NCBI RefSeq assembly: GCF_017304635.1
Contig: NZ_JAFKMA010000005.1
Location: forward strand, 1 to 64,000
Direction: 5' to 3'
DNA length: 64,000 nt
Origin: Sphingomonas sp.
GTDB taxonomy: Bacteria; Pseudomonadota; Alphaproteobacteria; Sphingomonadales; Sphingomonadaceae
Made by a program: the position numbers and the translations under genes. This document shows positions 1,488-30,841 of the stretch, in pieces; position 1 is the stretch's first letter, and each line of letters opens with the position of its first letter. The notes under the pieces are model-generated. The model had not been told where the DNA came from. It searched no databases and was given only the letters and a program-made list of their open reading frames with translations.

Positions 1488-1733
1488 AACCACACGGTCG
1501 TGGTTGGGCAACTTTTCGATGAAGAAACAGCTTCGTCGGGCTGATCGCGACCTTTGGGCGACGCGCAGTCCCAGACATCTGCAAGATCAGGCAAGCTTGT
1601 TTGAACCAAACCGGCTTTGTTAAGTTACAGGCTGCGATGGAGTCTTGCGCCAAAGGGGCTGGCCTTGTGACGAACTGAGGTCGTGCGACCCGGCCGCGCG
1701 CTCCAAGCGTGTTTGCACCGGGGAGCGTCGACC

Positions 1734-3239: not shown

Positions 3240-4968
3240 AGAACGTGACGAGCGCGTGCTGATCCTGGCGCCGTCGCGTCGGGACGGTCCCACGGTCGCG
3301 GCGATCTTGGAGCGAGCAGGACTTGCGACCCAGACCGTCGCCACGCTCGCCGATCTATGCCGGGGAGTGGACGAAGGGGCCGGGGCAGTGGTGGTCGTCG
3401 AGGAGGAGGTCTCGCCACCGACCGCGATGTCCATGCTGCAGGCTTGTCTTGCGCGGCAGCCCGCGTGGTCGGAGCCGCCGATCCTGGTGGTGACGGCCAG
3501 TGGCTCGCGCGGCAGCGCCGGGTTCGGCCGCGGCAGTGAACACTTCGCAGGCTTCGGCAATCTGGTGCTGCTGGAGCGGCCGCTTCGCTCTGCAACGCTG
3601 GTCAGCACCCTGCATTCGGCGCTCCGGGCGCGACGGCGGCAATATCAGGTGCGCGACCATTTGCGCGAGCGGGAGCGTGTCGAGGCGCGGTTGCGGGCGC
3701 AGGAGCAGGAATTGCGCGGCCTCAACGAAACGCTCGAAGAGCGCGTTCGCGAACGCACCGTGGAGCTGGAAGAGGCGAACCGCAGGCTGGCGGCGGAAAT
3801 GGAGCAGCGGCAGGAGGCCGAGCGGGCGCTCCGGCAGGCGCAGAAGATGGAGGCGATCGGCCAGCTCACGGGCGGCGTCGCCCATGACTTCAACAATCTT
3901 CTGATGGTGGTCTCTGGCGGGCTGGACATGTTGGGGCGGGCTCCCGACCCGGAGCGCCGCGAGCGGATTGTCTCCGGCATGCGCCAGGCCGTCACGCGCG
4001 GCGCGTCGTTGACGCGCCAGATGCTTGCCTTCTCGCGACGCATGTCGTTGGCGCCCGAGGCGATCGACTTGCGTGCTCGCTTCGATGACATGCGCATCCT
4101 GATGGCAGGGGCTCTGCGCGAGGATATCGCGCTCGAGATCGAGCTTGCGGAAGACCTCTGGCCGGTGATGGCGGACCAGACGCAGCTCGAGCTTGCCATC
4201 CTCAACACGGTCGTCAACGCGCGGGATGCCATGTCGCAGGGCGGGACCGTGACGATCTTCGCTGGCAATGCGCGACTGGACGGCCGTGGCGAAAGTCGTC
4301 TGGCCGGCGAATTCGTGCGGATCGAAGTTCGTGACACCGGCATCGGAATAGCACCTGACATCTTGGATCGGATCTTCGATCCCTTCTTCACGACCAAAGA
4401 GGTCGGGAGCGGCACCGGGCTCGGCCTCAGCCAGGTCTACGGCTTCGCCAAGCAGTCGGGGGGACATGTGAAGGTGCGGAGCCGTCTCTGGGAGGGGACG
4501 AGGATCATCCTACACCTGCCGCGCGCCAGCAGCCTTCCGCTCGCGGCGGCTGTCGAGGCGAGTGCACCCGCAATACAGGTACCAGGCCCGAAGGGCGAGC
4601 GCCGGATTCTCCTAGTTGAAGACAATGACGAGGTCGCGGAGCTGGCCGGCCAGATGCTGGAGGGGCTCGGCTTCACGGTTCGCCGGGCGGAGAGCGCGCC
4701 GTCCGCGCTCGCGCAACTGGAGAACGGCCACGCCGCCGATCTGGTGTTCTCCGACGTGGTGATGCCGGGCGGCATGAGCGGCATTGAACTCGCCCGCGAA
4801 CTCGCGCGCCGCCGTCCGGGCCTGCCCGTCGTGCTCACGAGCGGGTTTAGCGACGGCCAGCGGGATGGCGACGCAGAGGGCCTGAGATTGTTGCGGAAGC
4901 CCTATCGGCTCGACGAGCTGGAGGCGGCACTCGCGGCTGCCTTTGGAGCGCATCTCCCTTCCAGCTGA
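3217..4968 (+). CDS. Hybrid sensor histidine kinase with C-terminal receiver, partner of the KaiC-like ATPase
   Basis: The product has 583 residues. An N-terminal receiver-like domain (about 10-130) lacks a clear phospho-acceptor. A coiled coil rich in Glu/Arg (about 145-210) leads into HisKA with the phosphorylatable His in GGVAHDFNN (H223). The HATPase has its N box at NTVVNARDA and G boxes at DTGIGI and GTGLGLSQVYGF. A C-terminal receiver carries Asp513 in LVFSDVVMPG. There are no transmembrane segments, so it is cytosolic. ATG 3217 lies inside the end of the KaiC-like gene. This KaiC/kinase gene pair recurs in alphaproteobacteria, and I infer that the ATPase modulates the kinase. A bidirectional hairpin terminator follows. 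Confidence 0.9.
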   Translation: MTQIPGAEERDERVLILAPSRRDGPTVAAILERAGLATQTVATLADLCRGVDEGAGAVVVVEEEVSPPTAMSMLQACLARQPAWSEPPILVVTASGSRGSAGFGRGSEHFAGFGNLVLLERPLRSATLVSTLHSALRARRRQYQVRDHLRERERVEARLRAQEQELRGLNETLEERVRERTVELEEANRRLAAEMEQRQEAERALRQAQKMEAIGQLTGGVAHDFNNLLMVVSGGLDMLGRAPDPERRERIVSGMRQAVTRGASLTRQMLAFSRRMSLAPEAIDLRARFDDMRILMAGALREDIALEIELAEDLWPVMADQTQLELAILNTVVNARDAMSQGGTVTIFAGNARLDGRGESRLAGEFVRIEVRDTGIGIAPDILDRIFDPFFTTKEVGSGTGLGLSQVYGFAKQSGGHVKVRSRLWEGTRIILHLPRASSLPLAAAVEASAPAIQVPGPKGERRILLVEDNDEVAELAGQMLEGLGFTVRRAESAPSALAQLENGHAADLVFSDVVMPGGMSGIELARELARRRPGLPVVLTSGFSDGQRDGDAEGLRLLRKPYRLDELEAALAAAFGAHLPSS

Positions 4969-16910: not shown

Positions 16911-17059
16911 CTGCCTGCCCCACCCTGATCACTCCTACCGGTCACGCGCTCCGTCGGCCAGTCCGTCCTTTTTGTGCGCCGAGGCGCGCTACGGCGCCCG
17001 GCTCGTGCCGCTCCAGGAACCTGGGACCAGCTTGGGCATTGTGTCGGAAAGGGGGTGAG

Positions 17060-17476
17060 ATGATCGAGCCTGCATCCGACTCGGAAGAAGAACGCACGTC
17101 GATACTCGTCGTTGAAGACGAGATTTTGGTAAGGTATGTCATATGCGACTACCTGAGAGACTGTGGCTTCCATGTCATCGAGGCTGGTACAGCCGACGAA
17201 GCTCTGGAATACCTGCGGTCACATAACGATGTAGGGCTGGTCTTCTCGGATGTGCGCATGCCAGGGTCGCTGGATGGCATAGGCCTTTCCCAGCAGGTGC
17301 GGCTTCTCTACCCGCATATCCCGGTGATCCTGACGTCTGGGCATCTGCTGCCGGGCGAGATCGACGGAACGCCGCTGATGACGAAGCCCTATGTACTTGG
17401 CGACGTGGCTCAGAAAATCCGTGCCATTCTGGACGACGCGGGGGGCGGTTTCACGTCGAACAGTGAAGCGGTATGA
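17060..17476 (+). CDS. Single-domain response regulator (receiver protein) 1
   Basis: This is a 138-residue CheY-like receiver without an output domain. The acidic pocket is VVEDE near residue 20, the phospho-acceptor Asp lies in LVFSDVRMPG, the Thr/Ser switch is in VILTSGHLLP and Lys in MTKPY. ATG 17060 is preceded by GGGGGTGAG. The 3' end overlaps the second receiver gene by 4 nt, so the pair is translationally coupled. No cognate kinase is adjacent; the hybrid kinase at 3217 is on the same element. A longer frame from 16856 is unlikely. Confidence 0.88.
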   Translation: MIEPASDSEEERTSILVVEDEILVRYVICDYLRDCGFHVIEAGTADEALEYLRSHNDVGLVFSDVRMPGSLDGIGLSQQVRLLYPHIPVILTSGHLLPGEIDGTPLMTKPYVLGDVAQKIRAILDDAGGGFTSNSEAV

Positions 17477-17877
17477 CTAGTCCCCATATCCTGTTGGTGG
17501 AGAACGACGTGCTCGTGCGGAAGCCGCTCGCTGAATATTTGCGCGACTGCGGCTATAAGGTGGTTGAAGCCCTGAATACCGATGAAGCGGTTGAGGTGCT
17601 GACCACGGGCAGCGCTGCCATCGGCATCGTGCTGGCCGACGTGAGCAGCCCCGGCAAGATCGATGGCTTCGGTCTTGCGCGTTGGATGCGGTCGAACGGT
17701 ATCGACGCAAAGATCATTCTCGCCGGCACCGTCCAGAAGGCGGCCGCCAAGGCGCAGGACCTCTGCGAGGACGGCCCGCTGTTGTCGAAGCCCTACGATC
17801 ACTCGCTTCTGCTCAATCGCATCAAAAGCGAAGTGGCGGCGAGAGCGCGAAACGGAAAGCCGGAGTCTGACATCTGA
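17473..17877 (+). CDS. Single-domain response regulator (receiver protein) 2
   Basis: The 134-residue receiver is a paralogue of the preceding gene (both share the LRDCG..V.EA..TDEA.E.L pattern). The first acidic pair has become VENDV instead of VEDE. The phospho-acceptor is in IVLADVSSPG, and the switch Thr region reads IILAGTVQK. Lys is kept in LSKPYD. The altered acidic pocket and DVSSPG suggest weaker or different phosphorylation. It starts inside the stop of the upstream gene. Together they look like a tandem duplication with divergence. Confidence 0.85.
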   Translation: MTSPHILLVENDVLVRKPLAEYLRDCGYKVVEALNTDEAVEVLTTGSAAIGIVLADVSSPGKIDGFGLARWMRSNGIDAKIILAGTVQKAAAKAQDLCEDGPLLSKPYDHSLLLNRIKSEVAARARNGKPESDI

Positions 17878-17905
17878 GGTCGGCGAAGAGCGCGAAGAGC
17901 AAACG

Positions 17906-18115
17906 ATGGACTGCAAAGAAAAGGCGCGCCTGGTCATTGATTACGAAGCAAAAACGGCCAGTTTTTCACGCGCTGTGACGGTTTTTCAAGGCAAGTTGGC
18001 GACGTCTGCAAAGGAGGAATACGACCGACTGCAACGGCGTGTCGACGAGGCGCGGGTTGAATCGGAGGGCGCCCGGCTCGCGCTGGAACGCCATATCTCT
18101 GAACATGGTTGTTGA
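17906..18115 (+). CDS. Small helical protein (69 aa), conserved hypothetical
   Basis: The frame MDCKEKARLVIDYEAKTASF... ends EGARLALERHISEHGC. It is charged and predicted helical throughout, probably a short coiled coil, with Cys at positions 3 and 69. Small proteins of this kind with the MDCKEKARL opening accompany two-component genes in alphaproteobacteria as far as I recall; function is unknown. It starts 28 nt after the second receiver gene and is probably in the same transcript. The ribosome binding site is weak. Confidence 0.6.
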   Translation: MDCKEKARLVIDYEAKTASFSRAVTVFQGKLATSAKEEYDRLQRRVDEARVESEGARLALERHISEHGC

Positions 18116-18384
18116 ACTGACTCTGCGGTACGGCGGTGCGATTGACGGGTGCGTCTCCCCTGGCGGTCGCGCGCGAGAATATTTCGCGAGGGAGGAGGAG
18201 CGCCCGGTCCGGGAAATTGAAGCACCTCGCGCGCGAATGCGAGGTTCTGGGACGACCAGCGGGTGGGGGACGCGGGGCGGTTTCAGGGTCGCGGCTGCAG
18301 TGGTATCGGCGTAGGAAGAAGGTCGGTCTGCTTTTGGTCCGAACGTTGCGGGTTGCCCTCCCTGGGCGATAAGCTTTCAGTGCG

Positions 18385-18652
18385 ATGAAAAGCAAGTTCG
18401 GCCCCAAAAATTGCTTACGAGGTGCTCGTCCAAAGCGTTGTGGACTACGCGATTTACTTGCTCGACCGCGAGGGCCGCGTGTCGAGCTGGAATCCAGGCG
18501 CGGAGCGGATCAAGGGCTATTCGCCGGGCGAAATCCTGGGCAAGCACTTTTCCCGGTTTTACACCGAAGAGGATCGCCACGCCGATGTGCCCGAGGCGGC
18601 GCTTGGCCCAAGCTTGGGCGGTGACATTCAGTTCGAGACTGCCGTCCCCTGA
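18385..18652 (+). pseudogene. Frameshifted, truncated PAS-domain sensor remnant
   Basis: From ATG 18385 the frame reads MKSKFGPK and then loses sense. One base less in the A-run at 18406-18410 would continue IAYEVLVQSVVDYAIYLLD..., a typical PAS domain (WNPGAERIKGYSPGEILGKH, FYTEEDRHADVPEAAL). The frame ends soon after with TGA at 18650-18652 and no kinase domain follows. A one-base expansion of the A-run plus loss of the 3' part therefore explains the remnant. An alternative in-frame GTG at 18422 could express only a bare PAS fragment. Confidence 0.7.
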
Positions 18653-18793
18653 GCCGCGTAGCGACGGGCTCTCGCGCCAATCATGAAATTGTCCGTGCCG
18701 CTCGCATCAGGTCGAGGTGATGGGCCACGGCTGGCGAAGATGAGCACTACATCTACGCTTTACCACAATGATGATCCGATCCGGAGGTCGAAC

Positions 18794-19348
18794 GTGACTA
18801 TCGTGGCAACTGCCTTTTGGCGACGGCTGGATACGCTCGGTCACGACGCGTGCCGTTTGGAGCAGTGCGGTAGTGGTTGGCGTATCGAAGGAACCGCCGT
18901 CTTTCGCCGTAAGGAAGGCCCGGCGTGCATTGCCTATCGCGTCGAATGTGGCGCCGATTGGAAAACGGTGCGCGGAGACGTTCGGGGTTTCCTTGGGCGC
19001 CGACCTATCGAATACCTCATCGTTCGACAGGGGACTGAGTGGACGCTGAACGGGGAGGTCGTGCACGGCTTGGATCATCTCGTTGATCTCGATCTCGGGT
19101 TCACGCCTGCGACGAACCTGCAACAGCTTCGTCGCGTTCCGATCGCTCAAGGCTGCGCCGCTCACATCTCTGTTGCATGGCTCGATGCCGAGACAGGTGA
19201 GTTGACCGAACTGGACCAGCGATACACGCGACGTGGCGAATCTGCCTTCTGGTACGAGGCACCGAGCGCCAGCTACGAAGGCCTCCTCAAACTCGCGCCG
19301 GATGGCTTCATTCGGCATTATCCTACTCTCTGGAAGGCGGAACAGTAG
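18794..19348 (+). CDS. Putative glycolipid-binding domain protein
   Basis: The 184-residue protein matches the glycolipid-binding-domain family: an FWRRLDTLGHDACRL start, GTAVFRRKEGPACIAYRV, YLIVRQGTEWTLNG, DLDLGFTPATNLQQLRR and a C-terminal YTRRGESAFWYEAPSASYEG. It is cytosolic with a beta-rich fold and no known enzymatic role. GTG 18794 is preceded by GGAGG with ideal 6-nt spacing; a longer frame to 18683 lacks support. It borders the defence island and is not obviously linked to it. Confidence 0.82.
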   Translation: MTIVATAFWRRLDTLGHDACRLEQCGSGWRIEGTAVFRRKEGPACIAYRVECGADWKTVRGDVRGFLGRRPIEYLIVRQGTEWTLNGEVVHGLDHLVDLDLGFTPATNLQQLRRVPIAQGCAAHISVAWLDAETGELTELDQRYTRRGESAFWYEAPSASYEGLLKLAPDGFIRHYPTLWKAEQ

Positions 19349-19467
19349 CGTAACGGCGGCGGCGACGCCGCGCCCCAGCGTAGATTTGGCGGGGCAATTG
19401 GAGCCAGAAAGCAGCTGCCTCACAATTCTTGAACCTGAATCTCGGTGCCTCGGGCTGGACGGAGATT

Positions 19468-21372
19468 TCAGGCTATCTGGATGGTCTGAACGCCGGCCTT
19501 GCTGAGAAGGCCGTAGAGGGTGGCGATCTTGGTGCGCGCCCCGCGTTTGGCGCAGTAGGTGAAGACCACCCTCTGCTTGGCCCGCGTGAACGCGACGAAG
19601 AAGCCGGCGGTCGCCTCCATTTGGTCGCCAGCAAAACTCCACCAGGCGCCGTCATCAAGCCCGACAAAGATGACGCTATGGTATTCGAGCCCCTTGCTCT
19701 TGTGGATCGTCATGAGCGGAATGGCATGCAGGCCTTCGTAGGTGTCGAGGGTCTCCGTCCAATCTGCGGCGTCGGCCGATGACCCGTGCAGATGCACTGC
19801 GGTGGCCTCAACGACCTTCTCAAACCACCCGCCCTGCGCATAGGCGGGATGAACGGCGATCAGCCGTTCACGGCCGACGAAGCAAAGGACGTCATCAACG
19901 ATGGTCCGCGCATCGGCTTTGGACGCTGGCGGTTCGGGATGGTCGGCGCTGAGCTGGGTCGCTTGGGCGTCGAGCTCGCGGGCGAATATTGCCTGGGCGG
20001 CTTCGTCCTCGGGAGAAATCCCGCGCAAAGCCCCCAGCGCCTCCTGGCATTCGGTCCAATGCCGACCTGCGCGTTTCGTCATGGCAAGACGTAGAACCTT
20101 GACCAACAGCTCTGATGCTTCTTCCGCGAGAAGCTCTTGCAACATGACGGCGCCGACGGTTCCGGCCTCGTTGCGAAGCGGGATTCCCGCGGCTCGAAAG
20201 GCTGGCTCGAGTACGGCCGCATAGTCGACCGCCTTCTGGCGCACGAGCAGGACGAAGTCGCGAGGGCCGAGCGCATGGGCCTTCACTTCGCCGGCGACGA
20301 ACCGGGCCAGCCGCTGTGCTTCGATCTCGGGACTCGAGAAGTCCCAGATTGCGCAGCTTTCGCCTGCAATCGTGGTTGCCGTCTTCGAAACGGGCTCTAC
20401 CGCACGAGCGTCTAGCGCTTGCGCGAGGACATGCTGGATGCGCACGAGCTCGGGCGACGACCGATAGTTGTTGTAGAGCGGCGTGCGCTTGCCGCCGAAA
20501 TCGGCGTCGAACGCGGAGAATGGATCGTCCATCGCCATCGCCCAACGCATGATCTGCTGCTTATTGTCTCCCACTGCAGTGATCACTGCATCGGTTCCGA
20601 GGAAGACCGAGCTCCTCGCACAGCGCGCCGCCTATCTTCTGCAGACCGGCATCGCGCCGCCGCCGCGGCGCATTCTCGCGATCAGCTTCAAGCGTGACGC
20701 CGCGACCAATCTCGCCGCCCGCGTCCGCCAGCGCTGCCATCGCAGCCACGCCGGCCGTCTCGATTCGATGACCTTCGACGCGTTCGCCAAAAGCCTGGTC
20801 GACCGGTTCGGCCAAGCGCTGCCCGAGCGATGGCGACCGCGACCCGACTATGAACTCATGTTCCCAAACGATACGGCCTTTCGGGGATTTCTGTTCCAGG
20901 ATGTCGGTACGCCTCCGAAAGCCATAGGCAGCTACGCTGACCTCCAGGCGATCTCCATCAAGACATTCGAGCGCTCGCTGCTCGTAGGCTCACCGCTTCC
21001 CGTTCTGGGCTGGCCTGACCCGACAGTCGGCCAGTGGGCGGCGGATCGATTCTGGCAATCGTCGCTGCACGAGGGAAAGAAGACCTTTCTGTCGTTCCCG
21101 ATGATCGGACGGCTCGCCGAACTGCTCCTGCGCGTCAATCCGATGGCGCGCGACGCCCTCCGTTTGACCTACTCGCACCTGTTCATGGACGAGTTCCAGG
21201 ACACCACCCAGATCCAATACGATCTCGTGCGAACGATCTTCCCCGCACCGGGGCCGGCGATGACCGAGCGGTTGTCGGTGGAGCGGACCACCTTGATCGC
21301 GTTCGCTTCGAGGGCGTCGACACCGATCGGCTTCCAATCGTCGGGTCGAACCCGTCGCGCAAGCACCGCCAT
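19468..21372 (-). pseudogene. gajB: UvrD-like helicase (GajB-like) split by an internal inversion
   Basis: The N-terminus reads on the minus strand from ATG 21372 (MAVLARRVRPDDWKPIGVDA ... VIAGPGAGK). The middle (TELLAQRAAYLLQTG through FMDEFQDTTQIQYDLVRTIF) reads on the plus strand at 20607-21236. The C-terminal half (LGTDAVITAVGDNKQQIM ... VAFTRAKQRVVFTYC) reads on the minus strand again. Inverting 20607-21236 joins the three parts in frame into a 634-residue superfamily 1A helicase with Walker A GPGAGKT, Walker B DEFQD and motif VI VAFTRAKQ. The intact gene would start 2 nt after the OLD-nuclease stop, the Gabija arrangement. As present, no full-length helicase can be made. Confidence 0.88.
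20607..21236 (+). other. Inverted 630-bp segment inside the helicase gene
   Basis: The segment is bounded by GGAAGA at 20601-20606 and its inverse TCTTCC at 21237-21242. Re-inversion gives GGG AAG ACC GAG CTC at one junction (GKTEL) and ATC TTC CTC GGA at the other (IFLG), both in frame. A perfect 16-bp palindrome, TGCAGTGATCACTGCA (20575-20590), lies 10 bp outside the left breakpoint and could favour a cruciform. Confidence 0.88.
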
Positions 21373-21374
21373 GG

Positions 21375-22534
21375 TCAGTCTCGCCGCAGGCATTTGGCGA
21401 TATGGTTGAGAAGTTCCGAAAGCAACGGCGGCATGTCCTCACGCAAGGCCTTGGTCTTGATGTGGGTGAGCGCCGCGAGATGTGTCGCCGGCTTGCTGTT
21501 CGTGATGAAGTGGTAGCGATAGGCGGGCAGCAGATCCGGGTAGTCCTTGTAAGGTCCGGTGTAGAGGGCGAGCCCTGGTCCAGCTGTGCCCAGGACGACT
21601 TCGGCTGCCTTATCGACGGCCATCTTGGGTCCGCCCCCCTTGGGTATAACTGCTTCATAGGCGTCGGGAAAAGCCGCGATCATCGCCAGGTCGAGGTCGA
21701 GCGGCGCGGAGAAGTAGACGGCGTGAGGCTTCAGGCAGTCGACCCATCCCTTGAGCAGCTTGCGGTCATCGGCATCCTGCCACGTGTGCATCTTGGCGAA
21801 ATCGGCGTCCGATAACATGCCGCCTTCGATCTTGAGCAGGTTAGCCTTCGGCACGCCGAATTCGATAAGTTTCTCGATCGCGGTCTTCACCCGGCCGAAG
21901 CCGCCGCCGCTACGGCCGAGGTCGAGATCGAGCAGAGTCGCGTGTGGAATGCCAAGGTGCGTCAGCAACCGCCAGAAATGCTGCACATGGCGCCCGCCCA
22001 GCGGCACGATCGCGACGAAGGCAGGATCGATCAGGAGGTCGAGCGCTTCGGCGAGACGCGGGAGGACGATCCGCTCCGAGTCCCCTTCGACGAGAAGGAC
22101 GAAGCGTGCGAAGTAGAGTTCCGGGTAGGCGAGCATGGCGCCACGGACGAACTTGGCCGCCTCGTCTATCGACCCAGAACAGCTCCTGCGACACCTCGCC
22201 CTCGACGGTTCCGTCGTCCTCCCAACGCGCTTCGAGCCGCAAGCGACAGACCGGTGCTTTGTCTGCACGCTCGAGCTGCATGTGCCGAAATGACGGTGCG
22301 ATGGTTTCGGGCGTGGTCATCGATGTCCTCGTCAGCTCCGACATGAAAATCCGACCGCTGCACGGTGCGTTGTGCGCGCGAGACGCCGAACAGCTTCGAC
22401 AAGGCGTGGAGGAGCGCGGTCTTGCCGGCCGCGTTCGGACCAACGACGGCGGTGATCTCCGAGGCAATCGGCACCGTGATCGGGTCGGGGCCGAAGCAGC
22501 GGAAGCCGGACAGGGTGACGCTTTCTAGACGCAC
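21375..22534 (-). pseudogene. gajA: OLD-family ATPase/Toprim nuclease (GajA-like), internally deleted and frameshifted
   Basis: Three frames carry consecutive parts. Frame A from GTG 22534 has MRLESVTLSGFRCFG and Walker A VGPNAAGKTALL. Frame B (about 22318-22170) has SFRHMQLERADKAPVC and EGEVSQELFWVD. Frame C (about 22170 to 21375) has the Toprim domain with LLVEGDSERIVLPRLAEAL and ATLLDLDLGRSGGGFGR. About 385 codons remain where class 2 OLD proteins have 550-600. The missing part includes Walker B and the ABC signature. The A/B and B/C junctions both change frame, consistent with two deletions. Followed by a UvrD-type helicase, the locus is Gabija-like. Only a bare Toprim fragment could be expressed. 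Confidence 0.82.
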
Positions 22535-22548
22535 AATTTTCTCTCGGG

Positions 22549-23727
22549 TTAGGCTGCGGGCAGGGGATCGGTGCCCTCGCTGAGGATTGCGAGATAGCGG
22601 CGATAGCCGAAGACGCGACCGCGCCGCCGGCCGGTCACCTCCTCGACGATGCCGAGGCGTTCAAGATCGGCAAGCGCGGCGTTGACGGTGGGCGCGGACA
22701 GGCCCGTTCGCTCGACCAGCAGGTTTGCGGTGAGATAGGGGTTCTGCTGAAGGAGATCGTGGATGCGCAGCGCGGAGCCAGGGCGTTCGCTCTCGCCGGT
22801 GATGCGTTCGCGGTCGTGCTTGAACAGTTCGACGATCCGGGTCGCGGCGTCGAAGGCTTGGTTTGCCGTATCCGCAACGCCGGTCAGGAAGAAGTCCAGC
22901 CAAGCCTCCCAAGCCCCGTGTTCGCGCACCTCCTGAAGCAGCCTATAATAGTCGGCGCGATGGGTCTTCAGATAGAGGCTCAGGTAGAGCAGCGGCTTTC
23001 GCAGCACGCCGTGAACGCAAAGGTAAAGCGTCACCAGCAGACGCCCGATACGGCCATTGCCGTCCAGGAAGGGATGGATCGTCTCGAACTGGACGTGCAG
23101 GAGGCCCGCCTTGATCAGCGCCGGCAGTCGAGACTCGTCCTCGTGCATGAAGCGTTCAAGGGCGTCGAGGCAGCCATCCAACTCCGTCGTTGGAGGCGGG
23201 ACGAAAAGCGCGTTGCCTGGTCGGCTGCCGCCGATCCAGTTCTGCGAGCGCCGGAATTCGCCCGGGCTCTTGGTGCCGCCCCGCCCGCTTTGCAGAAGCC
23301 GTGCGTGCATTTCGCGGATCAGGCGGAGCGACAGCGGCAAGTCCTCAAGCCGCTCCAGGCCATACATCATTGCGTCGACGTAGTTCGAGACTTCGCGGAT
23401 GTCGTCGATCGGCTGCCCGGCCTGCGCCTCGGTCTCGAAGCGCAGGAGGTCGGTAAGGGTGGATTGGGTTCCCTCGATCTGGGACGAGAGGACGGCCTCC
23501 TTCCTCACATACATGTAGAGGAAGAGCTCCTGGCGCGGCAAAAGCATGGTTATGCCGTCGAGGCGGCCCAGCGCGCGTTCAGCTAGGCTCAAACGGTCCA
23601 GCAGCGTGAGCACGTCGATCGGCGGCGCCGGGGGGAGCGGCGGCGGCACGAAGGCACGCACCGTCTCGCCGGCGACGGGGGTTTCGACAAAGCGGCCCAG
23701 CCGCTGATTGGGTTCGGGATCAACCAT
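22549..23727 (-). CDS. fic: Fic family protein with C-terminal winged-helix domain
   Basis: This is a 392-residue AMP-transferase-type protein. The inhibitory helix SSQIEGTQ (residues 81-88, S/T-x3-E-G) is present. The catalytic loop HPFLDGNGRIGR (218-229) is complete, with the flap near VPPPTTELD. The C-terminal winged helix (about 325-385; LTANLLVERTGLSAPTVNAA) should bind DNA. Fic proteins of this class are self-inhibited and often act as their own repressors or as toxins. The gene is divergent from a zinc-ribbon-like gene across an AT-rich spacer with repeated GCTTAAATA sites. The stop codon lies 15 bp from the GajA-like start. Confidence 0.92.
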   Translation of the reverse strand: MVDPEPNQRLGRFVETPVAGETVRAFVPPPLPPAPPIDVLTLLDRLSLAERALGRLDGITMLLPRQELFLYMYVRKEAVLSSQIEGTQSTLTDLLRFETEAQAGQPIDDIREVSNYVDAMMYGLERLEDLPLSLRLIREMHARLLQSGRGGTKSPGEFRRSQNWIGGSRPGNALFVPPPTTELDGCLDALERFMHEDESRLPALIKAGLLHVQFETIHPFLDGNGRIGRLLVTLYLCVHGVLRKPLLYLSLYLKTHRADYYRLLQEVREHGAWEAWLDFFLTGVADTANQAFDAATRIVELFKHDRERITGESERPGSALRIHDLLQQNPYLTANLLVERTGLSAPTVNAALADLERLGIVEEVTGRRRGRVFGYRRYLAILSEGTDPLPAA

Positions 23728-23753
23728 GTGCGCCGATTATGGCAACCCACCCT

Positions 23754-23814
23754 TATTTAAGCAATGCCCACTTGGCTTAAATAGGAAATGGGCTAAGGTA
23801 AGTCAGCTTAAATA
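23754..23814. promoter_or_regulatory. Operator candidate in the fic divergent promoter
   Basis: TATTTAAGC (23754-23762) and GCTTAAATA (23775-23783) form a perfect 9-bp inverted repeat with a 12-bp spacer. A third half-site GCTTAAATA lies at 23806-23814. This AT-rich island lies between the divergent Fic and zinc-ribbon-like starts. The winged helix of the Fic protein is the obvious candidate ligand. Confidence 0.65.
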
Positions 23815-23831
23815 ACGAGGCCTGATGAGAA

Positions 23832-24458
23832 GTGGGAGGCTACAGCCAGCGCGTGCGCGACAGCATTCTGCCCCTTTCGGTGGCCGACACGCTGCCTGCC
23901 GCCTTCGCCGAGTGGTCCTTCACCGAAAACACGGTCGACCACGAGACACCGATCGAGACATGCGAACTGTGCGGCCAGCAGGACCTCAGATATCACTTCG
24001 AGATCGCCAACCCATATACCGAGGCAGCGCTCTGGGTCGGCTCACATTGCATACTTCAATTCGACGTCGCCGTCATGGAGAATGGCCGGCGCCTTTCGCC
24101 CGAGGAGGCAAAGCGCCATCTGGCCAAACTTACCCAGCGGATGCAACTGGAGTCCTGCATCCGTGCGCTGGAACAGCTCGCCACGAAGGAGGTCAACCCG
24201 GTGCTGTCGGGCGCGCTCGACTACTACCGGCGCAACAAGAAGCTCACGCCCAAATATGCCGCCGTGGTGTTCTGGAAGCTTCGGACGTTTCGGATCGACC
24301 ACCACCCCTCCTTCTTTCAGGTCGAGCTTCGCCGCGCCCAGCACATCGAGGACCTGCGACAGATGCCGACACGCCGGGTTCATCGCTTCTGGAGCGCGCT
24401 GAGCGCGGGACAGCGCCGGAAGGCGGTGGAACTCGGACATACTCCCCCAGATGAATGA
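23832..24458 (+). CDS. Zinc-ribbon-like hypothetical protein divergent from fic
   Basis: The 208-residue protein has a CELCGQQDLRYHFEIANP segment (about 44-61) followed by WVGSHCILQF (about 69-78), a likely CxxC...H..C zinc site near the N-terminus. The rest is helical and basic (EEAKRHLAKLTQRM, GALDYYRRNKKLTPKYAAV). I recognise no named domain. The start is a GTG at 23832, a few bases after the third operator half-site, so it is probably repressed together with fic. It could be a DNA- or RNA-binding partner or target of the Fic protein; that is inference. Confidence 0.6.
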   Translation: MGGYSQRVRDSILPLSVADTLPAAFAEWSFTENTVDHETPIETCELCGQQDLRYHFEIANPYTEAALWVGSHCILQFDVAVMENGRRLSPEEAKRHLAKLTQRMQLESCIRALEQLATKEVNPVLSGALDYYRRNKKLTPKYAAVVFWKLRTFRIDHHPSFFQVELRRAQHIEDLRQMPTRRVHRFWSALSAGQRRKAVELGHTPPDE

Positions 24459-24491
24459 TGGGGGACAGGACTGGGCATTCTGTATTGCACG

Positions 24492-24520
24492 AGCGGTCAC
24501 TTACATTGAAGGTGATCGCT
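24492..24520. promoter_or_regulatory. Inverted repeat upstream of the ABC-3C operon
   Basis: AGCGGTCAC (24492-24500) and GTGATCGCT (24512-24520) pair at 8 of 9 positions across an 11-nt spacer. The element is about 50 bp upstream of the operon start, and TGTAAT (24520-24525) could be a -10 box. It is an operator or terminator candidate. Confidence 0.3.
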
Positions 24521-24571
24521 GTAATTACCGAACCGAAGGAATCTTCATTTGAGTAGGGGCCAGAGCCAGGG

Positions 24572-25768
24572 ATGAAGCCAGCCAGCACGCACGAAGCCAG
24601 CGCTTCGGCGACTGGCTACCTTTTTCAATGCCGCTACGCCTTGCTCGCCGGTCTTCAGGCTATCGCCAAGTCGCCCCAACTGGAGATTTCGATCGAGAAG
24701 TTCGACGATGTGGGGTTCGAGGTCAACGGTGAGCCGACACAGCTTATCCAGACCAAGCACCATGTGGGCAAGCTGGGCAACCTGACGGATGCCAGCGTCG
24801 ATCTGTGGAAAACGTTGCTCATCTGGACCAAGCGCGTGACGGAAGACGTCGAGGCGCCCTTCAGGATCAAGTTCGTCCTGTTGACGACAGGGTTCGCGCC
24901 AGATGGGTCAGCGGCGGCGCTCTTGCGCATGCGCGAACGGGATGAGTCGGCCGCTGATCAGCTGCTCCTGAAGACCGCTGCTTCATCCAAGAACAAGGAG
25001 AACGCTGCAGCCTATCAAGCCTACTCGGCGCTGCCGGAAGATTTGCGTCAAAGCATGCTGAAGGCGATCCTCGTTCTCGACGGCTCGCCCAACATCGTCG
25101 ACGTCGGGGATGAGATCGCGCGCGAGCTCGTTCACGCCGCGCCGCGCGATCAGGTCGACCATCTGGTAGAGCGCCTTGAAGGATGGTGGTTCGGCGTGGT
25201 GATCAAGGCCCTCTCCGGAGCAGGCCCTTCGGCCATCCCCGTGCTCGCCATTGACCAGCGGGTCGATGAACTTCGGGAGGAGTTCAGGCGAGACGCCCTG
25301 CCGGTCGATTATGCGTCCACCTATCCGTCACCGACGGTCGTCGCCGAACTCGACAAGCGTCCTTTCGTGAAACAGTTGCGAAGGATCGAGGTCGGCCCGC
25401 GGCGCGTGGAGTTCGCGATTCGAGACTATTACCGAGCGTCCGAGCAGCGATCGCGCTGGGCGCGCGAAGAGCTTCTCGTAGGTGGCGAACTCGAGAACTA
25501 TGAGCGGCAGCTCGTGGAAGCGTGGGAGCCGCGCCACGCCGCCTTGGTCGACGAACTCGGCCCGGGTTGCCCGCCCACCGAGAAGGTCGCCGCCGGGCAG
25601 CTGCTTTACAAATGGGTGGAGAACGAGGCCCAGTTTACATTGAGAAGCGTTCGGGACCGGTTCCTGACCCACGGCAGCTATCACATACTGTCGAATCGAT
25701 ACGCAGTCGGGTGGCATCCTGAATATCAGAGCGACCAGGATGACCCTTCCGATGACGGGGTGGGCTAA
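24572..25768 (+). CDS. ABC-3C system effector with N-terminal REase-like nuclease domain
   Basis: The 398-residue protein starts with SASATGYLFQCRYALLAGLQ and then EKFDDVGFEVNG ... LIQTKHH. The D46 and Q60-x-K62 pattern fits the D...QxK active site of DUF4297-type restriction-endonuclease-fold nucleases. A helical C-terminal region (about 225-385) contains the ABC-3C C-terminal signature area (FAIRDYYRASEQRSRW, LLYKWVENEAQFTLRS, HILSNRYAVGWHPEYQ). In ABC three-component systems, predicted by comparative genomics as conflict systems, such proteins are the effectors controlled by the SMC-like ATPase. It is first in a three-gene operon, 3 nt before the next gene. It is full length with no visible lesion. 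Confidence 0.8.
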   Translation: MKPASTHEASASATGYLFQCRYALLAGLQAIAKSPQLEISIEKFDDVGFEVNGEPTQLIQTKHHVGKLGNLTDASVDLWKTLLIWTKRVTEDVEAPFRIKFVLLTTGFAPDGSAAALLRMRERDESAADQLLLKTAASSKNKENAAAYQAYSALPEDLRQSMLKAILVLDGSPNIVDVGDEIARELVHAAPRDQVDHLVERLEGWWFGVVIKALSGAGPSAIPVLAIDQRVDELREEFRRDALPVDYASTYPSPTVVAELDKRPFVKQLRRIEVGPRRVEFAIRDYYRASEQRSRWAREELLVGGELENYERQLVEAWEPRHAALVDELGPGCPPTEKVAAGQLLYKWVENEAQFTLRSVRDRFLTHGSYHILSNRYAVGWHPEYQSDQDDPSDDGVG

Positions 25769-25771
25769 TCC

Positions 25772-26272
25772 ATGCAGCCCTGGTCGAACCGCGTCACCGA
25801 AGAAGCTTATCTGTTCAATCCGGCTTTCTGCGCCACTTTGCTGGCGAAGACGACTGAAGACTATACGAAGAAGGCGGGGCGGCCGTTCCCGTTTGCTCTC
25901 ACCTTCCTTATTCTCCCGATCGTTCTGCACCAGGGCACGCGGCGAGCGTTGCCGAGCTCGACAGTGACCTCGCTTTTGCCTTGGATTCAGGACAACCGTG
26001 AGCAACTTGTCGACTTCGCGAACAGGGTGACGCGCCTGAGCGCGATCACCCGCGAAGCCGTTGTGTTCGGTGCTCAGCACCAGATCTTGGCGCTGGCGGA
26101 CAGCGGCGACCTGAGCGTTGGGGCGAAGCGTCAAACCGCGACCGAGAAGCGGACCGCGCTGTTCACCGCAGAAGCCCGCGAGTGCGTCGACCGGGCAGGT
26201 TTCTTGGGACGATGGTTTGCCGCCGCGGGCACAACCGCAACAATCTACGCCGCGTGGGGGGTGACACCGTGA
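25772..26272 (+). CDS. ABC-3C system middle component
   Basis: The 166-residue helical protein has the middle-component features EEAYLFNPAFCATLLAKTT, FALTFLILPIVLH and an alpha-helical C-terminus with LGRWFAAAGTTATIYAAWGV. The family links the SMC-like ATPase and the effector in ABC-3C systems. It is known only with such partners, which supports the assignment here. ATG 25772 begins 3 nt after the effector stop. The stop codon overlaps the ATPase start (GTGA). No catalytic motif is expected. Confidence 0.78.
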   Translation: MQPWSNRVTEEAYLFNPAFCATLLAKTTEDYTKKAGRPFPFALTFLILPIVLHQGTRRALPSSTVTSLLPWIQDNREQLVDFANRVTRLSAITREAVVFGAQHQILALADSGDLSVGAKRQTATEKRTALFTAEARECVDRAGFLGRWFAAAGTTATIYAAWGVTP

Positions 26273-28206
26273 GTCTGCAAATTGCCAAGCTCATTCTCTA
26301 CAGTCGCCGGGGTGAAGTTCGCGAGGTCGTGTTCAGACCCGGCGAGCTAAATATACTGACCGGCGGCTCAAAAACCGGCAAGTCAGCGATAATCGACATC
26401 ATCGATTACTGTACGGGCCGCAGCGAATGCAACGTCGCGGATGGCGTGATCCGCAAGTATGTCGGCTGGTATGCTTTGCTGTTTCAAATTGGCGACGGAC
26501 AGATCTTCATCGCCCGTCGCAACCCCGATGTCGGCGATCGAACGAACGGCGATATCTACATGGACCGAGGGTCGAGCATCGAGACACCGTCGGAGTCCGC
26601 CCTGTTCAAAAACACGACGGTGGGCGCAGTAGAGAAGTTCCTCGGCGCCGCGATCGGCATCAGCGAGAACGAACATCGACCTCCGACCCCAACCCGCGAC
26701 CCGCTGGAGGCAAACTTCCGGCACGCGCTGTTGCTCTCCTTCCAAGACCAGAACGACATCGACAGCAAACAGCGCCTGTTCCACCGGCAAGGCGAGGACT
26801 TCGTCAGTCAGGCCATCAAAGATACGTTGCCCTATTTCCTTGGGGCCGTGGATGAAGACCGCCTATTCAAGCAATCCCAGCTCGATCAGGCCAAACGCGA
26901 ACTACGTCAGCTAGAACGCCAGCTCCGCGACGCGGACGCCCTTGATAGCAGCACGTACCCGCGTGCGCGCGCCCTTGTCGACGAAGCCAAACAGGTGGGA
27001 CTTATCGACGAGCGGACTGTCGCGCTCACCTACGAGGCGGTCCTTGCGGTTCTTCAGCGCGTGGTGCGTGACACCGGCGTGCGCGACAATTTTATGGTGG
27101 GTGACGGCGAGGACGTGCTGGCTGGCCTACGCGCTGAACGCCAGGGTCTTCGAACCGAACTCGAGAGGGTCAACGCCGAGATTCGATCGACCCGGACGTT
27201 TACGTCGGAGACGAGTGGCTACGAACGTGAAGCAAAAGAGCAGCGAGCTCGCTTGAGCTCCGTCGGCCTGATCAAACATGGCGATCACGATTCCGCTCAT
27301 TGCCCGCTGTGCGAAAGCCAGCTTCCCGTGCCGGCGCCGACCGTGGTGCAGATGCAGCGCTCGCTTCAGGAGCTCAGCGATCAACTCGAGGCGGTTGAGG
27401 CTGAGAACCCGCGGCTTCAGCTCAGATTGGCGTCGCTCAATCGCGAAGAGGCCGACATCGAGCAGCGTCTGCGGGAAAACCAGCAGCAGATTGCGGCGCG
27501 AATGAGGGAGAACGAGATCCTCCGCGTTCAACAGGACAGCTTCATTCTACAGGCGCGAACAACCGGAAAGATCACTCAGTATGTCGAGACCGCCAGCACC
27601 GCCGACACCAGCTCAGGGCTGAAATCGGCCATCGCGGCAAGCCGGATTCGGGTTGCGGCGCTGGAGCGGGAGCTCGACGCCGAAGCGATGAAGGAAAAGC
27701 TTGATGCCTTCTTGAACATTATCGGCCGCTACATGACCCAGTATTCTGACGATCTGGAACTGGAGCACCGAGGTAGCCAGCTAAGGCTCGACATCAGGGC
27801 CCTGACGGTCGTCGCTGATACTCTTGACGGTCCGGTCCCTTTGTTCCGGATGGGAAGCGGCGAGAATTGGGTCGGCTACCACGTCCTGGCACACCTGGCT
27901 CTCCATAAATGGTTTCGTCAAAAGAAGCGTCCCGTGCCGGGGTTCATCATTTTCGACCAGCCATCTCAAGCTCACTATCCACCGGACCGCGATGCGGAAG
28001 GTTCAATCGACGGGCTTTCCGACGAGGACCAGACCGCCGTGCTGCAGCTCTTCAAGCTGGCGGCCGATGCAGCGGCCGAACTCGCGCCGGAGCTGCAGAT
28101 CATCATCATGGATCACGCAGACCTAAAGCCGGAGTGGTTCGCAACGGCGGTGATCGAGCGATGGAGGAAGGGCGAGAAGCTCATTCCCGCGAGCTGGTTA
28201 CAGTGA
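26269..28206 (+). CDS. ABC-3C system SMC-like ATPase (DUF3732)
   Basis: The 645-residue protein has an N-terminal ABC half with Walker A GGSKTGKS (residues 32-39). A long coiled coil (about 230-500) is interrupted by a CPLC zinc-hook-like motif (C345, C348). The C-terminal ABC half has FRMGSGENWVGYHVLAHLAL as signature, FIIFDQPSQ as Walker B and IIIMDHADL as the late His/Asp region. This order is diagnostic of DUF3732. The start is a GTG inside the stop of the middle component. As in Rad50/SMC proteins, the ATPase probably senses DNA structure and gates the effector. It is full length. Confidence 0.85.
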   Translation: MSLQIAKLILYSRRGEVREVVFRPGELNILTGGSKTGKSAIIDIIDYCTGRSECNVADGVIRKYVGWYALLFQIGDGQIFIARRNPDVGDRTNGDIYMDRGSSIETPSESALFKNTTVGAVEKFLGAAIGISENEHRPPTPTRDPLEANFRHALLLSFQDQNDIDSKQRLFHRQGEDFVSQAIKDTLPYFLGAVDEDRLFKQSQLDQAKRELRQLERQLRDADALDSSTYPRARALVDEAKQVGLIDERTVALTYEAVLAVLQRVVRDTGVRDNFMVGDGEDVLAGLRAERQGLRTELERVNAEIRSTRTFTSETSGYEREAKEQRARLSSVGLIKHGDHDSAHCPLCESQLPVPAPTVVQMQRSLQELSDQLEAVEAENPRLQLRLASLNREEADIEQRLRENQQQIAARMRENEILRVQQDSFILQARTTGKITQYVETASTADTSSGLKSAIAASRIRVAALERELDAEAMKEKLDAFLNIIGRYMTQYSDDLELEHRGSQLRLDIRALTVVADTLDGPVPLFRMGSGENWVGYHVLAHLALHKWFRQKKRPVPGFIIFDQPSQAHYPPDRDAEGSIDGLSDEDQTAVLQLFKLAADAAAELAPELQIIIMDHADLKPEWFATAVIERWRKGEKLIPASWLQ

Positions 28207-28356
28207 GTTTGCGGGATCAGCCCGCGCGGGGTCGGCGATGGCCGGCATGTTGCTTCGGCACCGAGGCAGTATCTCATCGTCTGTGCGAAGCGGGTCCACA
28301 GGAGCTTGGACGCTCGAGCGACAGCGGGTGAGCCTAGGGAGCTACAGGTTCTCGGG

Positions 28357-28779
28357 CTAGCGGCCGCCCTGAGGCGCGCCGATCTGCCGCAACAATGTTC
28401 CGATCGATCGTCCGCTGATCTGGCAGACGGCGATGACGCGGTCATAGACCTGCACGCGGCCATTGCGGCCACGCACCGCGGTGCAGAAGGCCCCGCGGCC
28501 GAGAGCGACATCTTCCAGTGCTGCCTTGGCACGCGCTCCGATTGGGGCGTGAAGCTCGGGCGCATCGAAATCCGCCAGGCGGACCTCGATCCAAGTCGTC
28601 GGATCTGGGGAATCGCCGACGCACAGGCCGTCGCCGTCACCCACGTAACGGACCTGGCCCGAAAAGGAGTGACCGGCGCGAGTGGGGACCGGTGCTGTGC
28701 ACGGATCCGCAGCTGCCGGGGTCGCAGCCGCCCCAGCGGCCAAGACGCACGCCACGATCATAAGTACGCGCGAGATCAC
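28357..28779 (-). CDS. Secreted thermonuclease (SNase-like) family protein
   Basis: The 140-residue protein has a signal peptide (MISRVLMIVACVLAAGAAAT, cleavage after AAA about residue 24) and a staphylococcal-nuclease fold: YVGDGDGLCVG, then VRLADFDAPELHAPIGARAK with the catalytic Arg and Asp, and a late CQISGRSIGTLL. Cysteines suggest a periplasmic disulfide. Members of this group accompany integrases and transfer genes in alphaproteobacteria; their role is undetermined. It starts inside the end of the integrase gene (4-nt overlap), so it is expressed with it. Confidence 0.82.
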   Translation of the reverse strand: MISRVLMIVACVLAAGAAATPAAADPCTAPVPTRAGHSFSGQVRYVGDGDGLCVGDSPDPTTWIEVRLADFDAPELHAPIGARAKAALEDVALGRGAFCTAVRGRNGRVQVYDRVIAVCQISGRSIGTLLRQIGAPQGGR

Positions 28780-30029
28780 GCCGCCTGCTTCGCTGGCCGG
28801 CGGACGGGCTTCTTGGCCAGCATGGTGCGGGCGAACTTGTCCCAGCGCGCCATGCCAGCTCGCTTCTCTGGCATGTAGTTCCAGCGGTCGTAGCTCTTGG
28901 AGCTAACGTCCTGCAGCGCATGGTTCTGAATGCGATCGCGGATTTCCTTCGGCACGCCAGCCTTGCCTGACAGCGTCTTCCACGTTCGCCGCAAGTCGCG
29001 ATTGGTCACGACCGGGATGACGCCGCGGTCGCGCTGGCGCCACATAAAGGCATAGAGCGTCCCATGGCTGACGGGCTTCGATGGATCCTTCGCCGAGGGG
29101 AAGAACCACCCATGTTCGTTCGGCTTAATGGAATCGAGAAGCTCCGCCGCCAAGGACGGAACAGGGACCGCATGAGGCTTGCTGTTCTTGGTTTTTGACC
29201 AGTCGAGAATTCGTTCGCGGGAATCCCACTGATCCTTGTGAAGGCGCGCGATTTCCTCGACCCGCTGGCCCGTGAGCATCAGGATCTGAACGGCCCGCAG
29301 ATAGGGCGGGTGCACCGGCACGTCGGGGCATTCGAGCCATCGCCAGAGCTGGACAAACTCATCTTCGTCCAGCCACCGGGACCCGACGACCTTAGGCTCA
29401 GTCGGGATACCTGCCGCCGGATTGTAGACCAGTCGAAATCGGCGCGGCGACGTGTTTCGATAGTCGTGCTCCGATTTCATTCCCCAGCTGTAAGCTGCGC
29501 GGATGTAGCAGCGGACGTGGTCCGCCATGGCAGGGGCCCCACGCTCAAAGATCGGGCGGAGCACCTCCGTCACCTCGTCCGGCTCGATCTCCCGGGCAAG
29601 GCGGTTGCGCCCAAGAGTGTCGGCTACCTTGTTCAGTCCTTTCTCCGTTTCCTTCCAGGACGGCTTACCTGCTTCTTTGAGCGAGGCGACGTAGGCTTCG
29701 AAAAGGTCGGCGACGGTTCCGGGCCGAGCATCGGTGACGATCTTGATGCTCCGACCCTTCTGGATCGCGTCCGCGAAGTCGCGCTTGAAAACCTCTCGGG
29801 CTGCGGCGAGCGACATCGATGGATAGTCGCCGAGTTTCGCCTTGATCCGCTTACCGTCGCGCCATTGCTGGGCCATCCATTCCGCCAGCACCCGCTTAGG
29901 CATCGGCCGCACGACGAGGACCAGGCGGCCCACGCCGCGTCCCTCGCCGTCGGCCAGGGACTTCTGCTTTCCGGTCAGTTCGACGTCCTTGATGCTGCGC
30001 CGGATCGCGCCATCGGTGAGGCTGCCCAT
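28776..30029 (-). CDS. int: Tyrosine recombinase / P4-type integrase of the element
   Basis: The 417-residue protein has an N-terminal DUF4102-type arm-binding domain (AKLGDYPSMSLAAAREV), a core-binding domain (about 105-210) and a catalytic domain. Catalytic Arg is in TGQRVEEIARL, Lys in KTKNSKPHAVPV, the second Arg in TNRDLRRTW, the late His in QNHALQDVSS and the Tyr nucleophile in KSYDRWNY. The usual H of HxLRR is Arg here. The gene is adjacent to and reads away from the radC junction. The start codon is 176 nt from the HNHP codons, and a strong inverted repeat lies in between. It is presumably responsible for insertion into radC. Confidence 0.93.
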   Translation of the reverse strand: MGSLTDGAIRRSIKDVELTGKQKSLADGEGRGVGRLVLVVRPMPKRVLAEWMAQQWRDGKRIKAKLGDYPSMSLAAAREVFKRDFADAIQKGRSIKIVTDARPGTVADLFEAYVASLKEAGKPSWKETEKGLNKVADTLGRNRLAREIEPDEVTEVLRPIFERGAPAMADHVRCYIRAAYSWGMKSEHDYRNTSPRRFRLVYNPAAGIPTEPKVVGSRWLDEDEFVQLWRWLECPDVPVHPPYLRAVQILMLTGQRVEEIARLHKDQWDSRERILDWSKTKNSKPHAVPVPSLAAELLDSIKPNEHGWFFPSAKDPSKPVSHGTLYAFMWRQRDRGVIPVVTNRDLRRTWKTLSGKAGVPKEIRDRIQNHALQDVSSKSYDRWNYMPEKRAGMARWDKFARTMLAKKPVRRPAKQAA

Positions 30030-30043
30030 GCTACGTCTCCCGA

Positions 30044-30116
30044 AAACTGAGGGCGGTAGTCAGTCGGTTATTGGGGTCGGAATGTGCTCCGATCCCCCAA
30101 TTACCGCCCTCAGTTT
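30044..30116. repeat. Nested inverted repeat between int and the radC junction
   Basis: Perfect 15-bp arms AAACTGAGGGCGGTA (30044-30058) and TACCGCCCTCAGTTT (30102-30116) enclose a second imperfect pair, TTGGGGTCGGA (30071-30081) with TCCGATCCCCCAA (30088-30100). It lies in the int promoter region and near the attachment site. It could be arm sites for Int or an excisionase, or a regulatory hairpin. Confidence 0.75.
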
Positions 30117-30160
30117 GCCCCAGTCACCGGAAGCTTTTCAAGCCCAAAAATCGTGGTGTT

Positions 30161-30757
30161 TCAATGTGCTTGGGCGTGATCGAGCGTGATCGATGTGGGT
30201 CTAGTAGGATGGTTGTGAACCAGGATGATCGCGGCGGATTTCAGGTCCATCGCCCGGCGGATAACCTCGCGAACATAGACCGGCGCTTCGTCGATCGATC
30301 CTTCATTCATCAATTCGTCGCGAATCAACATGTTGCGCGTATTGAGATGCAACACGCGAACGCGTTCGTTGCCGTGATGTGCCATGTCGGCGCGCAGATA
30401 GTCGAGCAGCGCCTGCCAGTTGCCGAGCACCGGCTTGGCCATCGCTTCCGCCCGCAACAGCCGCAACGCCGCCGCCTGCGCGATCTTGATCGCGGCGACC
30501 GACGTCTCGCCCATCCCCTTCACGCGGCCGATCGCCTCGGCATCAGCCGTCAGCAGGCCGGCGATCCCGCCGAACTCGGTCAACAATGCCTTCGCCAGCG
30601 GCTTGGTGTCGCGGCGCGGGATGGCGAGCGCGAGCAGATATTCGATCAACTCGTGGTCGAGCAGCCCGTCGGCATCCGTCAGCAGCCGCTGCCGCAGCCG
30701 GGCGCGGTGCCCGTCATTCGGTCCGCCAGTGGGGGAGGGCGCCTCGCTCATCGCCAT
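30161..30757 (-). pseudogene. radC: radC, truncated at its JAMM motif by element insertion
   Basis: The N-terminal HhH region (ELIEYLLALAIPRRDTKPLA, GLLTADAEAIGRVKGMG) and the MPN domain as far as AAIILVHNHP are normal RadC. The frame then changes to TRPTSITLDHAQAH, ending at the stop at 30161-30163. The missing S-x2-D half of the JAMM motif and about 45 C-terminal residues should lie beyond the other end of the element. A metal-dependent hydrolase site cannot be completed, so the protein is probably inactive. ATG 30757 or 30751 is the start; the longer frame to 30799 is not conserved. Confidence 0.88.
30206..30217. other. Probable attachment-site core at the element/chromosome border (radC HNHP codons)
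   Basis: On the minus strand the RadC codons CAC AAC CAT CC(T) are the last conserved bases; sequence to the left no longer matches RadC. An att core of at least part of these bases is expected to be repeated at the far end of the element, outside the window. Confidence 0.6.
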
Positions 30758-30794
30758 GCAGCGTATCGGGCGCGGCGGGGCGGTGCAATCGAGC

Positions 30795-30841
30795 GTCACA
30801 ATGTCACAATGGTTGACTCGCGAGTCCGCCTTTCCTAAACG
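30795..30841 (+). promoter_or_regulatory. Candidate promoter of the F0 ATP synthase operon
   Basis: TTGACT (30813-30818) and TAAACG (30836-30841) are spaced by 17 bp, about 110 nt before the atpI start. A tandem GTCACAAT (30795-30802 and 30803-30810) lies just upstream. The perfect palindrome GACTCGCGAGTC (30815-30826) overlaps the -35 box and spacer and could be an operator. Confidence 0.4.

Follow-up and report, generated by a model that had tools for sequence, protein, structure and literature searches.

Gabija is a defence system of two genes, gajA and gajB, which encode an OLD-family nuclease and a UvrD-like helicase, respectively. Defence reportedly requires both of them (PMC10822852; PMC10681800), and GajA has been described as a sequence-specific nicking enzyme (PMC8136825). 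In the operon described here both genes are broken, whereas its intact copies match the PADLOC profiles of the system. One of the lesions is an inversion within gajB. Known invertible phase-variation elements (Hin, Fim, hsdS) likewise involve the precise inversion of DNA within or next to a gene; the present locus differs from them in its 6-bp repeats, in that no invertase was found among the 33 window frames scanned, in the single orientation among 44 relatives, and in the presence of a second dead gene. In Escherichia coli, paired template switches have been invoked to explain complex events that include inversions and short shared bases (PMC3161906). The likeness to our locus lies in short junction homology, inversions, and several changes occurring together; the E. 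coli events, as reported, accompanied gene amplification under starvation, and two separate inversions among them were not exactly reciprocal, whereas the inversion described here is exact and lies at an inverted 6-bp repeat. The gene radC is a known integration site of ICEs in Mesorhizobium (PMC8627217). Integration at radC is shared with the element described below, which is represented here by one end only.

The analyzed stretch of DNA (the window) comprises bases 1–64000 of a 274,486-bp contig. The source assembly has a size of 3.18 Mb in 7 contigs, with a completeness of 99.9% and a contamination of 0.32. The comparison set consisted of 46 relatives, i.e., 43 genome contigs and three plasmid records. 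The features of the locus are listed in Table 1.

Table 1. Position, strand, and state of the pieces of the Gabija operon and of neighbouring features in the window.
Feature	Position	Strand	Remarks
Empty site of IS21	18675..18681		IS21 element here in Bradyrhizobium, with 7-bp target duplication CGCCAAT
Point in gajB where the Caulobacter copy passes into the end of the same IS21	19605..19606		Near contig end
C-terminal part of gajB (UvrD-like helicase)	19468..20606	-	UvrD_C domain (frame 19468-20586); DNA identical in Bradyrhizobium copy
Perfect 16-bp palindrome near left breakpoint	20575..20590		Present in intact copy too
Left 6-bp inverted repeat, GGAAGA	20601..20606	+
Inverted 630-bp middle of gajB	20607..21236	+	Residues about 53-263 of intact 641; opposite strand relative to relatives
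Right 6-bp inverted repeat, TCTTCC	21237..21242	+
N-terminal part of gajB up to Walker A	21237..21393	-	From its ATG now stops after 74 codons
3' part of gajA	21375..22166	-	Out of frame with the start; identical to Bradyrhizobium copy
Junction of 758-bp gajA deletion	22167..22169		3 shared bases; removes residues about 144-397
gajA piece kept between both deletions	22170..22314	-	22167-22316 with shared bases
Junction of 65-bp gajA deletion	22315..22316		2 shared bases; removes residues about 74-95
5' part of gajA	22315..22534	-	Read from its GTG, stops at codon 123
Fic protein, SoFic-type defence gene	22549..23727	-	Full length; identical in Bradyrhizobium and Caulobacter
Lamassu-type genes	24572..28206	+	LmuA 24572-25768, LmuC 25772-26272, LmuB 26182-28206; full length and identical in Caulobacter
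Tyrosine integrase of the element	28776..30029	-	Pfam Phage_integrase
radC	30161..30799	-	Identity to Caulobacter ends inside, at 30214 (element end)

According to the original prediction, one helicase gene lies in the window in three pieces, the middle one being flipped between two short inverted repeats. The pieces are placed as claimed, with the C-terminal and N-terminal parts on the minus strand and the middle on the plus strand, and both repeats are present at the proposed positions with a spacer of 630 bp. The inversion is exactly reciprocal, and no bases were lost. Re-inversion had been expected to rebuild the GKTEL and IFLG junctions in a single reading frame of 634 residues. In the uninverted Bradyrhizobium copy both junctions are indeed found in one open reading frame; its length is 641 codons and not 634. 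The uninverted form was looked for in related genomes and was found in all 44 of the 46 relatives in which both the middle and the C-terminal pieces could be placed (44/44 on the same strand, 0 inverted); the other two had no match to the middle of gajB and carry this gene as fragments only. The inverted junction was absent from viral contigs in an exact 25-base pattern search. When inversions were drawn at random in gajA/gajB (200,000 trials), inverted end homology of at least 6 bp was obtained in 0.235% of cases. Since such homology is rare by chance, the repeat probably took part in the inversion. As a recombination site, a 6-bp repeat is nothing special, and gajB contains 834 inverted repeat pairs of 6-mers, 218 of 7-mers, 57 of 8-mers, and three of 10-mers.

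The partner gene gajA, absent from the original prediction, carries two disrupting deletions, one of 758 and one of 65 bp, compared to the Bradyrhizobium copy. The shared bases at the deletions were within chance expectation (6.8% for at least 3 and 18% for at least 2). Searches elsewhere in the source genome revealed no match to the lost gajA pieces and neither a second intact copy nor moved pieces of the operon. In the window, neither gene of the Gabija system is intact. By comparison with relatives, the flipped and deleted states are shown to be the derived ones, since the inversion and the deletions occur only here and the middle of gajB is unflipped in the 44 relatives.

Two copies of the block, identical apart from rearrangements, were found, probably in genera other than that of the source: none of the same-genus genomes searched is near-identical here, and beyond the element radC is clearly different from that of Caulobacter. 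The copy of Bradyrhizobium sp. U87765 SZCCT0048 spans positions 16973–24763 of the window (7.8 kb), and that of Caulobacter sp. CCUG 60055 (three records) spans positions 19606–30214 (10.6 kb), both with 0 substitutions outside the rearrangements. Four mismatches in the Bradyrhizobium alignment represent an overrun past the 6-bp repeats and are covered identically by the neighbouring alignment. The Bradyrhizobium and Caulobacter copies share 5,981 bases without a difference, and the DNA common to all three strains amounts to 5.2 kb. In Bradyrhizobium, intact gajA (660 aa) and gajB (641 aa) matched the PADLOC profiles over nearly their full length (GajA, E = 6.1e-245; GajB, E = 3.1e-226), while no NCBIfam model scored above its cut-off for either protein. 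PADLOC and Pfam together place in this copy a GajA with ATPase and OLD-type TOPRIM domains next to a GajB of the UvrD-like helicase type, i.e., the composition of Gabija. The Caulobacter copy is uninverted, and its gajA is intact. Judging from the substitution-free DNA in Bradyrhizobium and Caulobacter, the block was exchanged very recently. As no substitution has accumulated, the lesions in the window are recent as well, or else artefacts.

Near-identical carriers were sought in samples of genus, class, and order genomes, which may overlap; for the class and order sets, no more than two candidates were scored in each listed genome. Seven of 41 same-genus genomes matched, namely the source itself and six over only 26–78 bases. 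Among 385 genomes of the class, 71 matched (E ≤ 0.001), including the source, and the best other among the matches listed was 67% identical. The source alone was present at E ≤ 1e-20 among the matches listed for 396 genomes of the order. For 398 genomes of the order of CCUG 60055, six were present at E ≤ 1e-20 among the matches listed, CCUG 60055 and others at 66–74%.

Identity to Caulobacter is complete up to position 30214 and falls sharply within radC. The integrase beside radC and this sharp break identify the block as the integrase-bearing end of an integrative element inserted in radC. As the contig starts within this element, only one of its ends is seen; the Bradyrhizobium copy would be the same element at the same site. 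radC matched NCBIfam TIGR00608 with 130.9 bits, just below the cut-off of 133.85. The G+C content of positions 16973–30200 is 62% vs. 67% for the whole window, in keeping with a foreign origin. The Bradyrhizobium sequence compared ends at 24763 and covers wholly the SoFic gene but not the Lamassu genes. Near the contig start, at 1683–4968, a KaiC-like ATPase gene is followed by a gene for a histidine kinase with a receiver domain; these are perhaps cargo of the element.

We interpret the inversion as a fixed loss-of-function lesion in a Gabija operon destroyed by three clustered rearrangements soon after its transfer, and we put the probability of this reading at roughly 0.72. Among the three options named by the original prediction, the accidental lesion is the best supported. 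An integrative element with an intact Gabija operon would have been acquired at radC by transfer; the 630-bp inversion in gajB would then have arisen at the 6-bp inverted repeat, and gajA would have lost 758 and 65 bp by deletions joined at 3 and 2 shared bases, respectively. Short-homology repair in cells could account for this, either by inverted template switching during replication or by end-joining; the latter is considered since Ku is encoded in the source genome. All three lesions may have been produced in one event. The loss may have been favoured if Gabija is costly or useless in the present host. Within positions 16973–30214 every break falls in gajA or gajB. Under a uniform model, which was selected once the data were known, the probability that three events cluster in these genes by chance was estimated at 2.1%; this figure is only suggestive.

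The palindrome near the left breakpoint, which had been taken as a hint of a cruciform or template-switch event, is real, with 10 bases separating it from the left repeat. The window contains seven perfect palindromes of at least 16 bp, this one included, and two of the seven overlap. The position of the palindrome fits a stalled fork, whereas the stability of the stem at the breakpoint is ordinary: at the six breakpoints the predicted stem stability was not unusual, the fraction of positions at least as stable ranging from 0.17 to 0.99.

Defence systems are thought to be quickly gained and lost owing to their cost to the host, and the early stage of such a loss is rarely observed. In the present case, a single Gabija operon in otherwise identical DNA is met in three states: intact, cut by an IS, and rearranged. 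The operon was hit separately by IS21 in Caulobacter, and the Lamassu and SoFic genes were spared there and in the window. One of the two other copies being broken and the neighbours spared, there are hints that Gabija may be unwelcome after transfer. The window was picked for being broken, and the unbiased count is therefore one broken copy (Caulobacter) of the two others; support for selection is thin. Degradation of DNA in vitro has been reported for GajA on its own (PMC10681800), which would give the host grounds for losing gajA too. In E. coli, co-expression of the Gabija complex was reported not to be toxic (PMC10822852), and this counts against loss by selection. Selective inactivation has been described for CRISPR-Cas in Bacillus cereus (PMC7242445), and the titles and abstract openings among the top matches listed in literature searches contained nothing on this locus or on Gabija loss by inversion. 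Only tentatively do we suggest that template switching or end-joining, in one burst, broke up the Gabija operon, and nothing else, of a just-acquired element and that the outcome was retained because Gabija harms this host. If this is true, the cost of one named defence system could be measured in matched hosts. These three strains offer a natural set in which to ask why Gabija is unwelcome.

Three rearrangements without a substitution are odd for slow neutral decay, and they are also what in-vitro chimeras are expected to look like. Stepwise decay is a variant within the preferred explanation, with overlapping odds, and assumes that the first hit was selected or neutral and that the other two were neutral in a dead operon. 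We consider it a serious but rather doubtful version of events. It agrees with the presence of three separate lesions in one operon and with the fact that gajB is split also in Roseomonas sp. OT10, where an IS5 transposase gene lies between its halves, in Rhizobium sp. CC-CFT758, and in Acetobacter persici, where gajA is split as well; some of these gajB splits may be sequencing frameshifts. Coverage of at least 95% by a single open frame is seen for gajA in 42 of the 46 relatives and for gajB in 40, counted on stop-to-stop frames with pieces below 35% identity dropped, some of the shortfalls being contig ends. Zero substitutions, however, leave little time for decay, and three neutral rearrangements without a substitution are improbable unless the region rearranges unusually fast.

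An in-vitro artefact, i.e., amplification or library chimeras or a mis-joined low-coverage region, would confine the rearrangements to the assembly. Three rearrangements with zero substitutions and short shared bases at the joints would be explained by it, and the 16S rRNA gene, for which a search of all 7 contigs of the source assembly gave 0 matches, might hint at an imperfect assembly. This last hint is weak, since the same search was positive in only 9 of 14 control genomes. The completeness and contamination values indicate that the assembly is not generally scrambled; elsewhere the compared block agrees letter for letter with other assemblies, and the breaks are confined to the two Gabija genes. 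We regard such an artefact as unlikely. An assembly error in the usual sense, the third option of the original prediction and a case separate from an in-vitro chimera, is unlikely, as an assembler is not misled by repeats of only 6 bp.

Self-inflicted cutting, in which GajA nicked its own locus and misrepair gave the clustered rearrangements, draws on the reported sequence-specific nicking activity of GajA (PMC8136825) and seems hardly probable: matches to the nicking consensus of Bacillus cereus GajA, which may not be the consensus of this GajA, lie no nearer to the six breakpoints than expected by chance (P = 0.37).

A reversible on/off switch, in which a recombinase would flip the 630-bp segment and re-inversion would restore GajB, is very unlikely and fares worst among these readings, even though the inversion is exact, reciprocal, and free of base loss, and inversion can be linked to phage resistance, as with PinQ, a serine recombinase reported to affect phage adsorption by inverting prophage DNA (PMC12529663). 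A switch needs two usable states, and re-inversion leaves gajA broken, with two deletions whose missing pieces were not found in the genome. Invertons have repeats long enough for a site-specific recombinase; here they are only 6 bp, a length shared by 834 pairs in gajB, and longer inverted repeats in this gene were left unused. None of the 44 relatives is inverted, and the inverted junction, sought as an exact 25-base pattern, was not found in viral contigs. Among the 33 window frames scanned, no recombinase was detected except the tyrosine integrase of the element (28776–30029), and Resolvase-domain matches, the sole invertase family searched genome-wide, were found on another contig only. 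An inversion rebuilt by eye can thus resemble a switch even where, as here, a second broken gene beside it says otherwise.

Copies of the block differ also by insertions of IS21. A 2.5-kb difference at the empty site (18675–18681) was considered as a deletion in the window and rejected; it is an IS21 insertion in Bradyrhizobium. The Caulobacter contig departs from gajB at residue 596, just before the stretch VAFTRAK, motif VI in helicases of this kind, and runs for a further 327 bases to its end. One open frame still spans residues 1–596 of Caulobacter gajB, and loss of its function is predicted. The far side of this insertion had no match in that genome. The final 327 Caulobacter bases open with the IS21 end that is also present in Bradyrhizobium, after which the sequence jumps inside the element. 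The jump lacks about 1.2 kb and has about 5 shared bases, and it is possibly another short-homology deletion or a contig-end effect.
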